The notes under the pieces are model-generated. The model ran no database searches. It saw nothing but the letters and a program-made list of their open reading frames with translations, and was not told the DNA's origin. 64,000 nt of DNA from Parvularcula marina (lineage in GTDB: Bacteria; Pseudomonadota; Alphaproteobacteria; Caulobacterales; Parvularculaceae), in the NCBI RefSeq assembly GCF_003399445.1, contig NZ_QUQO01000001.1, forward strand, positions 1,733,001-1,797,000. Direction: 5' to 3'. Positions 9,376-29,921 of this stretch are shown piece by piece; positions within the stretch are counted from its first letter, which is position 1, and each line of letters begins with the position of its first letter. The position numbers and the translations under genes are program-made.

Positions 9376-11637
9376 ATGGGGTTTGCAATCGTGTCTTATT
9401 CTATATTGGCTGGCGCATTGATGGCCGGCGCCTCTCTTATCGCCGCCGCTGCAGCGGAGACCGTTCCCGCGAACGCGGATATTGACCTGATCACCGTCAC
9501 TGGCAGCCGCCCTGCGAGTGAGATCGCAGGCGCTGTGGACCGGATCGATGCCGACGCTCTGCGCCGCTTCGAATTTGCCGACATCAACCGCATTCTGCGC
9601 CAGGTACCTGGGCTTAATATTCAGGAAGAGGACGGCTTCGGTCTTCGTCCCAATATCGGCATCAGGGGTTCAGGCGCCGACCGTTCTTCGAAAATTGTCA
9701 TCATGGAAGATGGCGTCCCTGTCGCACCTGCGCCCTATGCAGCGCCTTCTGCCTATTACTTTCCTACTGCGGGGCGCATGAACGCAATCGAGATCGTGAA
9801 GGGGCCGGGCGCTGTGCGCTATGGCCCGAACACAACTGCAGGCGCCATCCAGTTTTTCTCGACCCCGATCCCTGAAGAAGCGGCGGGGCATATCACGGCA
9901 TTTGTCAGCGACACAGACCGGACGACCGTTCACGCCTATGCCGGCAAGCGTTGGACTGCTGACAGCCTCCCTGTCCATATTGGCGGACTGATTGAGTTCT
10001 ACTCAGATGAAAGTGATGGCTTTAAGAAAATCACTCGTGGCGAGACCGGCTTTGACATCACCGACTTTGTCACAAAGCTGGGCTTTTATTCCAAGCCGGG
10101 CGCAGCCGCAGAGCAAAGTCTGGTCTTTAAATATCAGCATTCGGAGCAGACCTCGGATGAGACCTATCTCGGCTTGACCGAGGCAGATTTCGCTCGTAGC
10201 CCCTACCAGCGATATGCCGCAAGCCAGCTTGATCAGTTTCAGGGCGATCACGACACTTATCAGGCCACCCATAACATCACTTTCGGGAATGGCATCAAAC
10301 TCAACACCATCGCCTATCGAACGGATTTTGCGCGGAACTGGCGCAAGCTTGATGCTTTCGACAATTCAGCATTGTCAGAGTCCGGCGATTGCAACAGCCT
10401 TAATGAAATTCTGATCGATCCGCTGGCATGCGAATTGGAGTTCCGCGTCCTTGCCGGCCCCCAAGGGTATGTCAGCCCTGATGATGTCCTCGGCCTGCGC
10501 CATAATAACCGGGATTATTATGCGGCCGGTATTCAATCCGCTATCGGATTTTCCTTTGAGGGACTGGGCGCCAGCCACGATCTGACCGCGAGCATTCGAT
10601 ATCACGAAGATGAGCAGGATCGCTTTCAGCAACAAGACCAATATCGCATGGATAATGGCACGCTTGTCCTGACGACTGACAATGCGCCGGGCACGCAATC
10701 TAATCGCCTTTCAACCGCTGAAGCCTGGTCAGGATATCTCGAAGACATCATCAGCTTCGGGAAGACTGAGATCACGGCAGGCATTCGCATTGAGAATGTC
10801 GAGACCATGGAAACCCGTTGGTCGGGCGCCGACCGCACCGATGCAACGATCAGCCGGGAGCGCTCTAACAGCTATACGGAGCTTCTTCCGTCACTTGCCG
10901 TTCTCTATCGCGCAACACCGGAACTCTCCGTATTTGCCGGAGTGCATCGCGGATTTGCCGCGGCCGGGGTCGGCTCATCTGAGGACACTGACCCGGAAGA
11001 GAGTTGGATTTATGAGGTTGGCGGACGATATACCAATGGCCCCGCCTCTATCGAGACCATCTATTTTTTCAATGACTATTCAAACCTCATTGGTGCCTGT
11101 ACCAATTCGACCGGTGGATCTGGCTGCGATATCGGCGACAGCTTCAATGCGGGCGAAGTTGACGTCTACGGGCTGGAGGTCACGGCGAGCACTGATTTTG
11201 CGCACTATGCGCAGCTGCCGGATATGTCCCTTCCTGTCGCCGTCACCTATACGTGGACTGAGAGTGAGCTTCAGTCGAGCTTTGACAGCGGGTTCTTCGG
11301 CACCGTCATCGCAGGTGATGAATTGCCCTATGTTCCGGAACATCAGCTAACCGTCAGTGCCGGGATTGAACAAGGCGCATGGCGCCTTGACGCCATCATC
11401 AATCATGTGAGCGAGACTCGCAATGTCGCTGGCGGAGATCCCATCCCCGCGAGCGAAGAAATCGACGCACGCACACTCGTCGATCTGTCAGCCAGCTATG
11501 AAGTGACCGAGCATATCTCCCTTCTCCTCAAGGCGGAAAATCTGTTTGACGAGGAGTATCTCGCAGCACGGCGCCCCTATGGCCTCCGCCCGGGCAAGCC
11601 GCGTGAAGTCTTCGCTGGCCTGCGCATCGATTTCTAA
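9376..11637 (+). CDS. TonB-dependent outer-membrane receptor (FecA/siderophore type)
   Basis: 753 aa. A signal peptide runs to about residue 28 (AAAAA then ETVP). A TonB-box-like segment DLITVTGSR sits near 38-46, and a plug domain runs to about 155 with IRGSGADRSSKIVIMEDGVP and IEIVKGPGAVRYG. The 22-strand barrel ends LFDEEYLAARRPYG and the terminal Phe (LRIDF) expected of outer-membrane proteins. The layout matches FecA-like iron-chelate receptors; the ligand cannot be read from sequence. The start is uncertain: GTG 9391 has a better GGGG spacing than ATG 9376. Convergent with a TonB gene, which may energise it. Confidence 0.9.
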   Translation: MGFAIVSYSILAGALMAGASLIAAAAAETVPANADIDLITVTGSRPASEIAGAVDRIDADALRRFEFADINRILRQVPGLNIQEEDGFGLRPNIGIRGSGADRSSKIVIMEDGVPVAPAPYAAPSAYYFPTAGRMNAIEIVKGPGAVRYGPNTTAGAIQFFSTPIPEEAAGHITAFVSDTDRTTVHAYAGKRWTADSLPVHIGGLIEFYSDESDGFKKITRGETGFDITDFVTKLGFYSKPGAAAEQSLVFKYQHSEQTSDETYLGLTEADFARSPYQRYAASQLDQFQGDHDTYQATHNITFGNGIKLNTIAYRTDFARNWRKLDAFDNSALSESGDCNSLNEILIDPLACELEFRVLAGPQGYVSPDDVLGLRHNNRDYYAAGIQSAIGFSFEGLGASHDLTASIRYHEDEQDRFQQQDQYRMDNGTLVLTTDNAPGTQSNRLSTAEAWSGYLEDIISFGKTEITAGIRIENVETMETRWSGADRTDATISRERSNSYTELLPSLAVLYRATPELSVFAGVHRGFAAAGVGSSEDTDPEESWIYEVGGRYTNGPASIETIYFFNDYSNLIGACTNSTGGSGCDIGDSFNAGEVDVYGLEVTASTDFAHYAQLPDMSLPVAVTYTWTESELQSSFDSGFFGTVIAGDELPYVPEHQLTVSAGIEQGAWRLDAIINHVSETRNVAGGDPIPASEEIDARTLVDLSASYEVTEHISLLLKAENLFDEEYLAARRPYGLRPGKPREVFAGLRIDF

Positions 11638-11670: not shown

Positions 11671-11696
11671 ACGGGGCCCGAAGGCCCCGTTTTTTA
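11671..11696 (+). terminator. Rho-independent terminator of the TonB receptor gene
   Basis: ACGGGGCC (11671-11678) pairs perfectly with GGCCCCGT (11683-11690) around a CGAA loop and is followed by TTTTTATT. The T-run overlaps the stop codon of the convergent tonB gene. Confidence 0.92.
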
Positions 11697-12302
11697 TTCT
11701 TCGAGTTTGAAGTCGAATGTCTTCTGTAGCCCTCGCTTGCGGATCCCGTCTGGATCGGCATCGGGGAGGGGTGAGTATTTCCACCCCTCAATGGCACGCA
11801 AGGCCGCCTTGTCGAGACAACTGTCATCTGACTCAAGAACACGCGCATTGATGACCTGTCCGCCATTGGTGACGTCATATTCCACCGTGACGTCGCCCTC
11901 GATTTCCCGCGCGGCGCAATTGGCCGGATAGGCCGGTAATTTCTGCAGCACCGGATAGAAACCGGTCGGGGTAATCGTTGGCCCTTCCATCCCACCAGGG
12001 TTCCCTGGAAGACCGGGGATCTTGCCAGGATCAGGCCTCGGATCTTTAATTTTCGGGCCCGGAATAGGATCACCATCACCATTGTTCTCCGGCTTGGGCG
12101 GCGGTGGCAGGTCTGGCGGTGGTGTCGGATTTGGCGGCGGCGGAGGGGGTGTCCGCTTCGGAAGAACAGTCTCCCTGATATCTTCAAGCGCGTCAGGCAC
12201 TGTCGAGCCGTCATCACGGATCAGATGGTACATCAAAAGAAAAAGCAGGCTTGTGACGATAACCGCCACTGGAAAGCCCACCAGATAACGTAAGAATTTC
12301 AT
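11694..12302 (-). CDS. TonB energy transducer
   Basis: 202 aa from ATG 12302 (GGGGCAGG upstream); a TTG five codons earlier is less likely. One N-terminal membrane helix (about 6-25) is followed by a Pro-rich spacer (KRTPPPPPPNPTPPPDLPPPP, about 45-65) and a Gly/Pro/Asp-rich linker. A C-terminal TonB domain follows (EGDVTVEYDVTNGGQV, then AIEGWKYSPLPD). It spans the periplasm to energise outer-membrane receptors. It lies 117 bases downstream of the BlaI-M56/M23 pair on the same strand and faces the receptor gene. Two Cys (near 119 and 153) could form a disulfide. Confidence 0.9.
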   Translation of the reverse strand: MKFLRYLVGFPVAVIVTSLLFLLMYHLIRDDGSTVPDALEDIRETVLPKRTPPPPPPNPTPPPDLPPPPKPENNGDGDPIPGPKIKDPRPDPGKIPGLPGNPGGMEGPTITPTGFYPVLQKLPAYPANCAAREIEGDVTVEYDVTNGGQVINARVLESDDSCLDKAALRAIEGWKYSPLPDADPDGIRKRGLQKTFDFKLEE

Positions 12303-12386
12303 GTTCCTGCCCCACAAGTTACGTGTTTGGGGCGGATGCTACCTCAGGATGAGGCAATCGCAAAGCTCGCGGTAAGCGGCAGCGAA

Positions 12387-12411
12387 CCGGCACCCCGAAA
12401 TGAGGTGCCGG
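12387..12411 (-). terminator. Hairpin after the M56/M23 gene
   Basis: CCGGCACC and GGTGCCGG pair around a 9-base loop, nine bases after the M56/M23 stop on the reverse strand. No real T-run follows, so it may slow rather than end transcription toward tonB. Confidence 0.4.
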
Positions 12412-12419
12412 CAGCAAGT

Positions 12420-13799
12420 TTAGTCCTTATGCGGCTTAACCTTCGGTCCCGGCAGGTCGAGGACGGTCGCCGGATCGACATGCTCGCCATTGACGATCAC
12501 TTCGAGATGAAGATGCGGGCCGGTCGCCTGCCCCGAAGCACCAACCCGCGCAATCAACTCGCCGGCACGGACTGTTGCCTTGCCATCCGCCACGATTGTA
12601 TCGAGCTGAGCGTAGCGGGTGATCACACCGTCCCCATGATCAAGCTCCAGCATATTGCCGTAACCTGCGTCTGACAGAGTGACCCGCAAGACCTTACCCG
12701 ACGCCGGGGCGTAGACCGGCGTGCCCAATGGCGCGGCAATATCTGTCCCTTTATGCATTTTCGGCTTTTTGTTGATGGGATGGACTCGCTCTCCATACGG
12801 ACTGCTCATATGTCCCTCGACAGGCCGAACTGTAAAGTTCACCTCCGCCGCATGGGCGATCTGCCACGCCGAGAGGGGCGCCAGGACGAGGCCGAGCGCA
12901 GCCAGTACGGCAGTGGCCCGCCGGTTGCGGCGGCGCGGCTTTGGTTGCATGATATCTCCTAATCTCACGCGGATATCTCCTTTGGTTCTGGGTGAGAGAA
13001 CCGCCGGGGCGCATGTCGGTGCTGCTCCGGCGGTATGCTTCAGGACCCGGATCAGCGTCGCTGCATAGGCCTTTCGCATCTGGGGCGCCGCGCCAAGAAC
13101 CCGCGCATCACAATCAAGTTCGGCAGCAAGGCGGCAATGGCTGGTCTGCACACGAATGAACGGATTGAACCAGAAAACGGCATCAGCCGCGGCAAGAATG
13201 AGGAACCAGAACGGGTCCCGCCGGGCGATATGCGCCCGCTCATGTGCGATGATCAGCGCTGTCTCTTCCTCGCTCGCAGTCTTTGAATAGGCGCTCGGCA
13301 GAATGACCCGCCCGCAAGGCGTCGCGAAAGGCGAGACCGGCGCGCCGGTCAGGCGCACATCGCCCACAGCATCCCGGCCGATAGAGTGCCGCAAGATCTC
13401 ACGCATACGGACATAGCCACGCGCAAACCGGCCAAGCCCCAAGGCAGCGCCCGCAAGATAGAACAAAATCAGCGTCGCCCAGACCCACGGCATCAGATTA
13501 AAGCCGGGGGCAGCGGCTTCTTCCGCGACAACAACGCCGAGCCCGCCAATATGCTGCGGCTCTCCCATAGGCGGCAGCGGTGATGGAATATGCGGCATCA
13601 GTTCCGGCAGAAAGACGACTGCTAATCCGCAAAGAACCGGCAGGACCATCAGGACAAGGACGGCCCGTTCCTGCTGATCACTCAGTGACGTCTCGCCCGC
13701 ACATATCCGGCGCAACAGCGCCACAAGGCCCGACCACAAAAACGGCACACAGAGAACCATCAGCACAAAGAGGGCAGAAGGAGAAAGGCTCAACGTCAT
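12420..13799 (-). CDS. M56 (BlaR1-like) membrane sensor fused to an M23 endopeptidase
   Basis: 459 aa with two metallopeptidase parts. The N-terminal BlaR1-type M56 half has membrane helices at about 8-30, 46-66, 103-125 and 197-215, with the zinc motif HERAH at 186-190 and a further Glu in AAELDCDARVLG. A fourth-type helix near 298-318 is followed by a periplasmic LytM/M23 domain. That domain has HKGTD (349-353) and HLHLE (429-433), the complete zinc ligands of peptidoglycan DD-endopeptidases. It overlaps blaI by four bases. Normally BlaR1 carries a beta-lactam-binding domain there; here a wall hydrolase takes its place. RefSeq-type M23/M56 proteins of this kind exist, with unknown physiology. 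Confidence 0.9.
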   Translation of the reverse strand: MTLSLSPSALFVLMVLCVPFLWSGLVALLRRICAGETSLSDQQERAVLVLMVLPVLCGLAVVFLPELMPHIPSPLPPMGEPQHIGGLGVVVAEEAAAPGFNLMPWVWATLILFYLAGAALGLGRFARGYVRMREILRHSIGRDAVGDVRLTGAPVSPFATPCGRVILPSAYSKTASEEETALIIAHERAHIARRDPFWFLILAAADAVFWFNPFIRVQTSHCRLAAELDCDARVLGAAPQMRKAYAATLIRVLKHTAGAAPTCAPAVLSPRTKGDIRVRLGDIMQPKPRRRNRRATAVLAALGLVLAPLSAWQIAHAAEVNFTVRPVEGHMSSPYGERVHPINKKPKMHKGTDIAAPLGTPVYAPASGKVLRVTLSDAGYGNMLELDHGDGVITRYAQLDTIVADGKATVRAGELIARVGASGQATGPHLHLEVIVNGEHVDPATVLDLPGPKVKPHKD

Positions 13800-14176
13800 G
13801 CGTCATCCTCCTCATTGAGCCGGGCGAGCATGTCCTCAAGCTCAGCAATTTCATCCGCGTCGATGACCGAGCTGCCGGTGAACATCGACACCGGCAGCGG
13901 CGCATCCGCGCCCAAGACGTTGCGCCCGAAATCGCGGATCAGCCCGGCAAGGGTTTCGACCTTGGGCTGGGCCGCCGTGAAGGTCTTGATGCCGTGGACC
14001 GGCTCGATATCGAGGAGGCCCTTCTCGACCATGCGGTCGAGCGTCTTGCGCGTCGCCGAATAGGACCAGCCGGACTGGACCTCCGTTGCATCATGGATTT
14101 CACGGGCGGAGAGGCGCCCTTCGCGCCAGATCGCCTGAAGAAGCCGAAGCTCAGAGGAAGAAGGGGATGATGACAT
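13796..14176 (-). CDS. BlaI/MecI family repressor
   Basis: 126 aa from ATG 14176, the usual BlaI length. An in-frame start at 14233 would place the operator inside the gene and is rejected. The winged-helix domain shows SSSELRLLQAIW, LSAREIHDA and YSATRKTLDRMVEKGLL. An acidic C-terminus follows, as in dimerising BlaI proteins. BlaI repressors are cut when their M56 partner is triggered; the partner gene overlaps this one by four bases. The overlapping dyads directly upstream contain the BlaI core ACAAATGT, so autoregulation is likely. Confidence 0.9.
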   Translation of the reverse strand: MSSSPSSSELRLLQAIWREGRLSAREIHDATEVQSGWSYSATRKTLDRMVEKGLLDIEPVHGIKTFTAAQPKVETLAGLIRDFGRNVLGADAPLPVSMFTGSSVIDADEIAELEDMLARLNEEDDA

Positions 14177-14187
14177 ATAAGCAATCC

Positions 14188-14213
14188 GTCGCAGGTATGC
14201 GACATTTGTCGCA
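14188..14213. promoter_or_regulatory. Overlapping double BlaI operator
   Basis: Two dyads share six bases. TGCGACATTTGTCGCA (14198-14213) is a perfect 7-bp palindrome with a 2-base centre. GTCGCA-GGTA-TGCGAC (14188-14203) has 6-bp arms. The first contains the ACAnnTGT core of BlaI/MecI operators. They lie 12-37 bases upstream of the blaI start, in promoter position, and 74 bases before the divergent GST gene, so both could be controlled. Confidence 0.7.
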
Positions 14214-14286
14214 TCAGCATCACTGACTGTCAATGCAGGATTTTGCGCCTCGACCTCTCAATGCCCAAAGGACTAAATCGCAGGCC

Positions 14287-14892
14287 ATGAAACTCATCTA
14301 CACCAATGCCTCCCCCTATGCCCGCAAGGCCCGCATCGTGGCCCTCGAAGACGGGATAGATCTTGAGCTGATCTGGCACCATCCGACTGCGGAAGGCTCG
14401 AAGGTTCCTGACTTCAATCCGCTGGGCAAAGTCCCGGCGCTGATCCTAGATGACGGCACGCTGATCATCGACAGCCCCGTGATCTGCGAATTCCTCGACC
14501 AGCATGAGCGGACCCCCAGCCTCGTGCCCGCCGCCGGTCCCGACCGCATGAGGGTGAAGACGCTGGAAGCCATTGCAGACGGCATCATGGACGCAACGGT
14601 CGCGAGTGTTCTTGAGACCCGCCGCGATCCGTCCGAGCGGTCGCCCTATTGGCTCACCCGCTGGGAAGAGGCAATCCGGCGCGCCCTACCGCTGCTTGAG
14701 GGTCAGCTCCTCGCCGATGAGAGTTTCAATCTCGGCACCATCGCCAGCATTTCCGCACTCCATTATCTCGACTTCCGTTTCCCCGAGCAGGCCTATCTCG
14801 AGCCCCATCCGGCCCTCTCCGAATGGCTCAAATCACATGAAAACCGGGACAGCATCGTCCAGACCATGCCGTTTGACGGCCCCTCTCGTTGA
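14287..14892 (+). CDS. Glutathione S-transferase family protein
   Basis: 201 aa. The N-terminal thioredoxin-like domain has TNASPYARKARIVA, GKVPALILDDGTLIIDSPVICEFLD and the conserved cis-Pro of the glutathione site. The C-terminal half is helical, with WLTRWEEAIRRAL. ATG 14287 gives the standard MKLIYTNASPY start; an in-frame ATG at 14233 lies in the operator region. It is divergent from blaI. Substrate unknown; detoxification or thiol exchange are the family roles. Confidence 0.88.
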   Translation: MKLIYTNASPYARKARIVALEDGIDLELIWHHPTAEGSKVPDFNPLGKVPALILDDGTLIIDSPVICEFLDQHERTPSLVPAAGPDRMRVKTLEAIADGIMDATVASVLETRRDPSERSPYWLTRWEEAIRRALPLLEGQLLADESFNLGTIASISALHYLDFRFPEQAYLEPHPALSEWLKSHENRDSIVQTMPFDGPSR

Positions 14893-17401: not shown

Positions 17402-17495
17402 TTTATGGTGATAATCTATTATTCCGCACCAATGACTCGCCCGTAACCTCTTCGCACAAGAGCGCTCAACGCTCTCAAAAGAAGAGGAACGCGTG

Positions 17496-19850
<2,355 letters not shown>

Positions 19851-29010: not shown

Positions 29011-29733
29011 TCAGTTGCCTATCTGGAATTCGATAGTCGTCCGCACCCCTTCCCGAGCGACTGGCTGGCGGTCCACGATTTTGGGCGCGTAGACCCATTG
29101 CACGACAGACTTCTCCGCCGCCCTTTTGTAGCAGGAGCGCGTTGCGTCAACCGTCTTCACATTGATCGGCGCGCCTTCTGCCGTCACATCAAATTCGAGC
29201 ACCACCCTCGCATTCCAGACACCTGGACCATTCACACAACGCCTGAAATCGGCATATTCAGGCGGAACCCGCAACAGAGGCTGCGCATCACGATCAAGCC
29301 CGCCTTCCTCTTCCATGAGGGTACGGATTTTATGGATCGTCTCTTCTGTGATCCGGTACTCAAGCGTTGCGGTGAGCTTCCTGTCCTCCGCCGACCCTTT
29401 CCGTGCAGATTTATAATCATAGAGCCAGACTTTCGTTATCGTGACTGCCGAAAGATCAAGGCACGGATTGGTCGAAGACTGGACGGCGATATTCTCCGTC
29501 CTGCCATTCCAATCAACGTCATAGCCGACCGTCACGGTGCCGATGAATCCATCTTCCGGGTAGTTGTCCGGATCGATACAGTAATAATAAAGCCCCAGCG
29601 GCGGAGCCTGCCGTGAGATCGGGACGGGCTTTTTATCATCAACAGCCCCGGCCAGAGCCGGCGCCGAGCCTAACAACAGCACAAGGAGGAAAGACAGAAC
29701 GCCCCCCGCACGCGTCTTGAACTTACTGCTCAT
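29011..29733 (-). CDS. Exported protein with two TonB C-terminal-like modules
   Basis: 240 aa from ATG 29733 (AAGGGG eight bases upstream); the open frame begins further upstream but without signal-peptide logic. The signal peptide runs to about residue 28 (ALAGAV). Two similar halves follow. The first has GFIGTVTVGYDVDWNGRTENI, and the second VWNARVVLEFDVTAEGAPINV, each then a conserved Cys and a basic helix with VQWVY or VWLYD. These match TonB-C folds. There is no membrane anchor other than the signal and no Pro-rich spacer, so it is not a normal TonB. Role unknown. Confidence 0.72.
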   Translation of the reverse strand: MSSKFKTRAGGVLSFLLVLLLGSAPALAGAVDDKKPVPISRQAPPLGLYYYCIDPDNYPEDGFIGTVTVGYDVDWNGRTENIAVQSSTNPCLDLSAVTITKVWLYDYKSARKGSAEDRKLTATLEYRITEETIHKIRTLMEEEGGLDRDAQPLLRVPPEYADFRRCVNGPGVWNARVVLEFDVTAEGAPINVKTVDATRSCYKRAAEKSVVQWVYAPKIVDRQPVAREGVRTTIEFQIGN

Positions 29734-29921
29734 CAGCATCCCCTTCTTCTTGCCGGCCAGATTTACTTCACCCGGAATAGAGGAAAGCACCTGCCAGCTT
29801 GCACGGCGACATGACGGCCCTCTACTGACAGCCATCGGCCCTATCGGAGGCTAGATCAGGAAATTCTCGCACACGCCCTGCCCCCAAGAGGAAAGAGCCT
29901 CGCACAAAAGTTGTACCGGAG

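Follow-up and report, generated by a model that had tools for sequence, protein, structure and literature searches.

A BlaI-linked M56 receptor with an impaired M23 domain in the sensor position in Parvularcula marina

BlaR1-type signalling has been studied mostly as a detector of beta-lactams, and BlaR1 senses them with a penicillin-binding domain, in which the ligand is trapped and not cleared. What such a receptor might read when a cell-wall hydrolase domain stands in the sensor position, and which genes it might control, is the question raised by a locus of Parvularcula marina. We analyzed a 64,000-nucleotide stretch of this 3.4-Mb draft genome (the window), in which the order of genes on the minus strand is blaI, an M56/M23 fusion gene and tonB. 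A preliminary description of the locus had suggested that a signal of wall state controls a hydrolase carried by the receptor itself and possibly, through TonB, energy transfer to the outer membrane. In the open-access literature searched we found no functional study of M56/M23 proteins, nor any account of their operon, operator or active-site decay; the combination of M23 with M56 is recorded in a survey of M23 proteins, among the architectures making up <1% of M23 hits, in a passage that does not mention its gene context, operator, active-site state or function (PMC9662197).

The blaI gene (13796-14176, minus strand, with its ATG at 14176) encodes a 126-aa BlaI/MecI-type winged-helix repressor (Pfam Penicillinase_R, E 5.6e-16), and the fusion gene (12420-13799, minus strand) encodes a BlaR1-like receptor of 459 aa (Pfam M56, E 2.7e-24; M23, E 1.8e-29). 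The junction between them is a 4-bp overlap, ATGA, as had been described. Divergent from blaI is a glutathione S-transferase (GST) gene (14287-14892, plus strand; GST_N_2, E 1e-15). Downstream of the fusion gene, after a gap of 117 bp, is a tonB paralogue (11694-12302, minus strand; 202 aa; TonB_C, E 1.6e-14), a neighbor that is probably outside the blaI-M56/M23 system. It faces a TonB-dependent receptor gene with a siderophore-type profile (9376-11637, plus strand), an arrangement already recognized in the preliminary description; this convergent gene also lies outside the system, and a terminator-like hairpin is found where the two 3′ ends meet tail to tail. A search of Rfam gave no match for the locus. 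Elsewhere in the window, a catalase-peroxidase-like ORF (17493-19850, plus strand) has a lipoprotein-like N-terminal signal, LTALSACS, recognized by eye; such enzymes are usually cytoplasmic.

A BlaR1 core joined to an M23 domain

Using a profile of the fusion protein and its relatives, we were able to align residues 6-309 with residues 6-343 of Staphylococcus aureus BlaR1 (8EXP; E 2.6e-19). The aligned part is the membrane/protease core of BlaR1, and the M23 (LytM) domain (12459-12827, minus strand; residues ~325-447) takes the place of the beta-lactam sensor, in agreement with the preliminary description. A penicillin-binding sensor is absent from the C-terminus, where Pfam gave no transpeptidase-domain match; the NCBIfam BlaR1 models cover the M56 part only. 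The AlphaFold model has a mean pLDDT of 70.6, mostly >80 in the M23 part and of modest confidence in the M56 and linker parts, and structural comparison with VIA-align matched it to BlaR1 over residues 7-276 (Z 17.6, 242 aligned, rmsd 4.9) and to M23 hydrolases over residues 311-447 (Z 19.2, 129 residues, rmsd 2.0). Hydropathy places transmembrane helices at residues ~10-28, 46-64, 102-120 and 297-315, with a weaker segment within the M56 domain (197-215). The 63-103 loop contains 0 Lys/Arg residues versus 12 in 124-200 and 17 in 215-296, the distribution of the positive-inside rule. Homology, fold and predicted topology together place the fusion protein in the inner membrane with the topology of BlaR1, its M56 protease cytoplasmic and its M23 domain periplasmic. 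The M56 gluzincin site consists of HERAH at residues 186-190, which had been noticed before, and the downstream E227; this HExxH...E site is intact in 46/46 fused proteins.

Those proteins come from the window, 38 loci in other genomes of the same order, two named Parvularculaceae records, three Pseudoalteromonas loci, a Flammeovirgaceae MAG and a Lachnospiraceae MAG, and a few of the loci are near-copies of each other. The BlaI-M56/M23 pair is present in all 46, spanning Caulobacterales, Pseudoalteromonas, Bacteroidota and Bacillota: BlaI was detected directly upstream by phmmer in 44 loci, and in the remaining two a BlaI-like ORF occupies that place. A 4-bp overlap is the commonest junction of the pair, at 24/45 in a count that takes in one non-M23 pair. 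Among plasmid records we found only M23-domain matches and no fused M56/M23 relative.

The locus has in common with the BlaR1/MecR1-BlaI/MecI systems of Staphylococcus and Bacillus licheniformis a BlaI-family repressor, a translationally linked M56 receptor, the transmembrane/protease core, the HExxH...E site and an upstream operator with an ACAnnTGT core. It differs in having an M23 domain and not a penicillin-binding sensor, in lacking an adjacent beta-lactamase or mecA gene, in being Gram-negative, and in having a strict operator that is directed only at the system itself.

The BlaI operator and the genes behind the pair

Directly upstream of blaI we observed a BlaI-type operator, TGCGACAnnTGTCGCA. 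The candidate site (14197-14214), which the preliminary description does not mention, is a perfect 18-bp palindrome, ATGCGACA-TT-TGTCGCAT, ~20 bp upstream of the blaI ATG. ACAnnTGT is the core of BlaI/MecI operators, and the Penicillinase_R winged helix and a dyad with this core, both features of BlaI/MecI repressors, are present here; the repressor also matches MecI (1sd6) with E 7.6e-4. The operator is conserved in relatives: ≥12/14 positions of TGCKACANNTGTMGCA are matched near the blaI start in 33/44 loci, a threshold reached by 0.17% of mononucleotide shuffles, although the consensus was drawn from the same loci as were scored and the excess over shuffles is somewhat inflated. A relaxed pattern, GCKACANNTGTMGC, has exactly one site in the 3.4-Mb genome, upstream of this blaI, and a second BlaI target was not found with it genome-wide. 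The clearest target is therefore the system's own operon, and autoregulation of the blaI-M56/M23 operon is well supported at the sequence level. Looser matches (≤3 mismatches) number 168 versus 131 for a reversed-pattern control, a slight excess only, and there may be weaker BlaI operators elsewhere in the genome. Because the operator lies between the blaI and GST start codons, GST may be co-regulated. A sigma-70 consensus scan found no promoter, and this consensus is uninformative for this bacterial group.

BlaR1 cuts BlaI at Asn101-Phe102 (PMC9834060). The P1′ Phe position is conserved in 43/48 BlaI sequences, and its presence would be weak evidence for cleavage by the fusion, being conserved in BlaI proteins generally.

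The genes that follow the pair in relatives support envelope functions as outputs, namely an RND pump and M23 genes. One clade consists of long fusions (~730-880 aa). Behind several of its pairs (L082, L084, L086, L097 and L098) comes a gene for an AcrB-type RND pump (ACR_tran E 5e-192 in L084) and also, in the loci with enough downstream sequence, a likely RND adaptor gene; these loci have the appearance of an efflux operon controlled by a wall sensor. The C-terminal extension of the long fusions gave no Pfam match in the one that was scanned. In Pseudoalteromonas the next gene encodes an M23 endopeptidase that resembles Csd3/MepM, has its catalytic motifs intact and lacks M56 (L095, 5059-6378; L096, 4955-6274; L099, 6943-8229), and a small separate M23 protein follows the pair in two Caulobacterales genomes (L168 and L172). 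It is plausible from these arrangements that a hydrolase is under the control of the pair in relatives.

Two further BlaI-M56 pairs are encoded in the P. marina genome. The receptor of one ends in ankyrin repeats (L163; G000:C1:714000-727000), and that of the other ends in a long charged coiled-coil-like region (L162; G000:C2:391000-405000). Since unrelated C-termini are joined to M56 within one genome, sensor exchange looks general in the class of BlaI-linked M56 receptors.

The M23 active site and the function of the fusion

The preliminary description took the M23 domain for a complete LytM/M23 peptidase. We found H349, D353 and H431 in place as zinc ligands and H429 as the second catalytic histidine, but the catalytic histidine of the YxHL motif is replaced by Gln398 (YAQL), and by its sequence the domain is impaired and not complete. 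Of the 46 fused proteins, 28 have H at the YxHL position, 16 have Q, one has S and one has P. Non-His residues thus occur in 18/46 fused proteins versus 0/39 unfused M23 controls (Fisher p 4e-6, with relatedness ignored), and the Gln residues, which no control has, lie on separate branches. The controls were drawn from five of these genomes and a class-wide sample by a search pattern that itself required the zinc-ligand motifs; one protein matched as unfused but actually fused (L222 in G310) was removed by hand to leave 39. On a maximum-likelihood tree built without the YxHL column, which also included three unfused Pseudoalteromonas rows, all H, the distribution of Q requires at least 5 changes, and well-supported branches force 4 of these. 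All but one of the 46 fused proteins keep the zinc ligands. The exception is a same-family relative with P at YxHL (L081, 3973-5340), in which all M23 zinc and catalytic residues are lost and the M56 domain is intact.

Both catalytic histidines are described as strictly conserved in M23 (PMC6978369), and Ala at either of them abolishes activity in LytM and its homologues (PMC4594094). In crystals, the Pgp3 mutant H247A, which lacks the other catalytic His, retains binding of peptidoglycan peptides (PMC6978369). A LytM fold that binds rather than cuts is described, in the survey cited above, for the degenerate M23/LytM proteins EnvC, NlpD and DipM (PMC9662197), and the M23 domain of the fusion matches the fold of EnvC and DipM. 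In contrast to these proteins, the fusion keeps its zinc ligands with the YxHL His alone replaced, and it is joined to an M56 receptor instead of activating an amidase. M23 endopeptidases of the MepM/ShyA/Csd3 type are ~30-43% identical to the fusion M23 over the aligned part; they are complete enzymes with regulatory domains of their own, whereas the fusion M23 has a membrane protease as its partner and a broken catalytic pair.

The function that we favor, though we consider the case for it evenly balanced, is a self-regulated antirepressor switch, in which a BlaR1-like receptor carries an impaired M23 domain that binds peptidoglycan and gates the cleavage of BlaI. BlaI dimers would bind the conserved palindrome at 14197-14214 and repress blaI-M56/M23. 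The M23 domain would probably bind stem peptides or cross-links of peptidoglycan and turn them over little or not at all, in the manner of the ligand-trapping BlaR1 sensor, because the zinc ligands are kept and one catalytic histidine is lost. By analogy with BlaR1, binding or loss of this ligand would trigger cleavage of BlaI by the M56 domain, derepressing the operon. Since the only strict operator is the system's own, the evident output in this genome would be more receptor. The sensor site of BlaR1 is occupied by an extracellular loop, which ligand displaces (PMC9834060); the 63-103 loop of the fusion, a part in which the AlphaFold model is without confidence, could act in a similar way. 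A complication for a receptor is that in Bacillus licheniformis a peptidoglycan dipeptide acts directly on BlaI (PMC3305447). Additionally, a sensor with itself as the sole strict regulon has no obvious purpose unless weaker operators, read-through into tonB or the divergent GST gene provide outputs. A more specific version, which we offer tentatively and with rather more doubt than confidence, is a Gram-negative wall-state receptor in which a zinc-bound M23 pseudo-endopeptidase directly reads cross-links or stem peptides and signals across the membrane via BlaI proteolysis, the catalytic His having been lost several times independently because turnover interfered with sensing.

If a switch of this kind is at work, the BlaR1 receptor core is also able to read the wall itself, by means of a cell-wall hydrolase domain used as a sensor, and this version of it is widespread. 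With it, Gram-negative bacteria would have a one-protein route linking peptidoglycan in the periplasm to transcription, and the efflux pumps or endopeptidases placed behind the pair in relatives would be accounted for. The repeated His-to-Gln change predicts an M23 domain that binds without cutting. The wall-state signal of the preliminary description is in this respect a sensible proposal for a BlaR1-like receptor/repressor pair whose sensor position has been taken by a cell-wall domain.

Two other roles for the M23 domain have to be weighed against binding. In the first it would be an active endopeptidase for peptidoglycan, attached to a regulatory protease, and would sense its own substrate or product; induction would raise hydrolase activity. 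The zinc ligands and one catalytic His are kept here, the majority of fused homologues have the YxHL His, and the separate M23 genes found after the pair (L095, L096, L099, L168 and L172) fit a hydrolase output; many of the relatives that keep the His may depend in part on turnover for their function. However, the Gln found here and repeatedly elsewhere, the inactivity of His-to-Ala enzymes at this motif and the persistence of a fully degenerate M23 beside an intact M56 in L081 make an active enzyme unlikely, and the earlier suggestion that the system controls its own hydrolase is not supported for this protein. Residual activity through H429 is possible. We also think it improbable that the domain is a mere peptidoglycan anchor or dimerisation module, with the signal read by the periplasmic TM2-TM3 loop or by the membrane segments. 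The retention of the M23 fold without active-site residues in L081 would fit such a module, as would the exchangeable C-terminus seen in the ankyrin and coiled-coil receptors of this genome, but the near-universal zinc ligands and the replacement of His by Gln almost every time argue for selection on binding at the metal site.

We consider it very unlikely that blaI, M56/M23 and tonB are a single operon through which sensing of the wall governs energy transfer to the outer membrane. The three genes are on the same strand, as the preliminary description noted, with the 117-bp gap given above, and neither a strict operator nor a consensus promoter was found before tonB. The gap, however, contains a strong GC-rich hairpin (12387-12411; CCGGCACC-n9-GGTGCCGG, without a U-tract), and in the search for a conserved BlaI-M56/M23-TonB neighborhood the pair was always recovered but tonB followed it in 1/46 loci, this genome only; in the other loci, the 400 bp that follow the pair contain no TonB-like gene. 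TonB homologues are encoded in three genomes of the same genus, G330, G394 and G436 (a fragmented assembly), in which blaI was not detected. The closest tonB orthologue, 57% identical, is directly beside fabA in G436 (L203), and in the window the pair and the GST gene stand between tonB and fabA. This non-conservation, one of the observations that the preliminary description had named as refuting it, speaks against tonB as part of the unit and leaves that half of the claim, the proposed link to outer-membrane energy transfer, unsupported; most likely, tonB is next to the pair by accident. Because the hairpin is strong but not a canonical terminator, read-through into tonB is possible. An ExbB-ExbD-TonB cluster, named by eye from its sequence, is found elsewhere in the genome (L210). 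A second TonB_C protein of 274 aa is encoded within the window at 29011-29835 on the minus strand.
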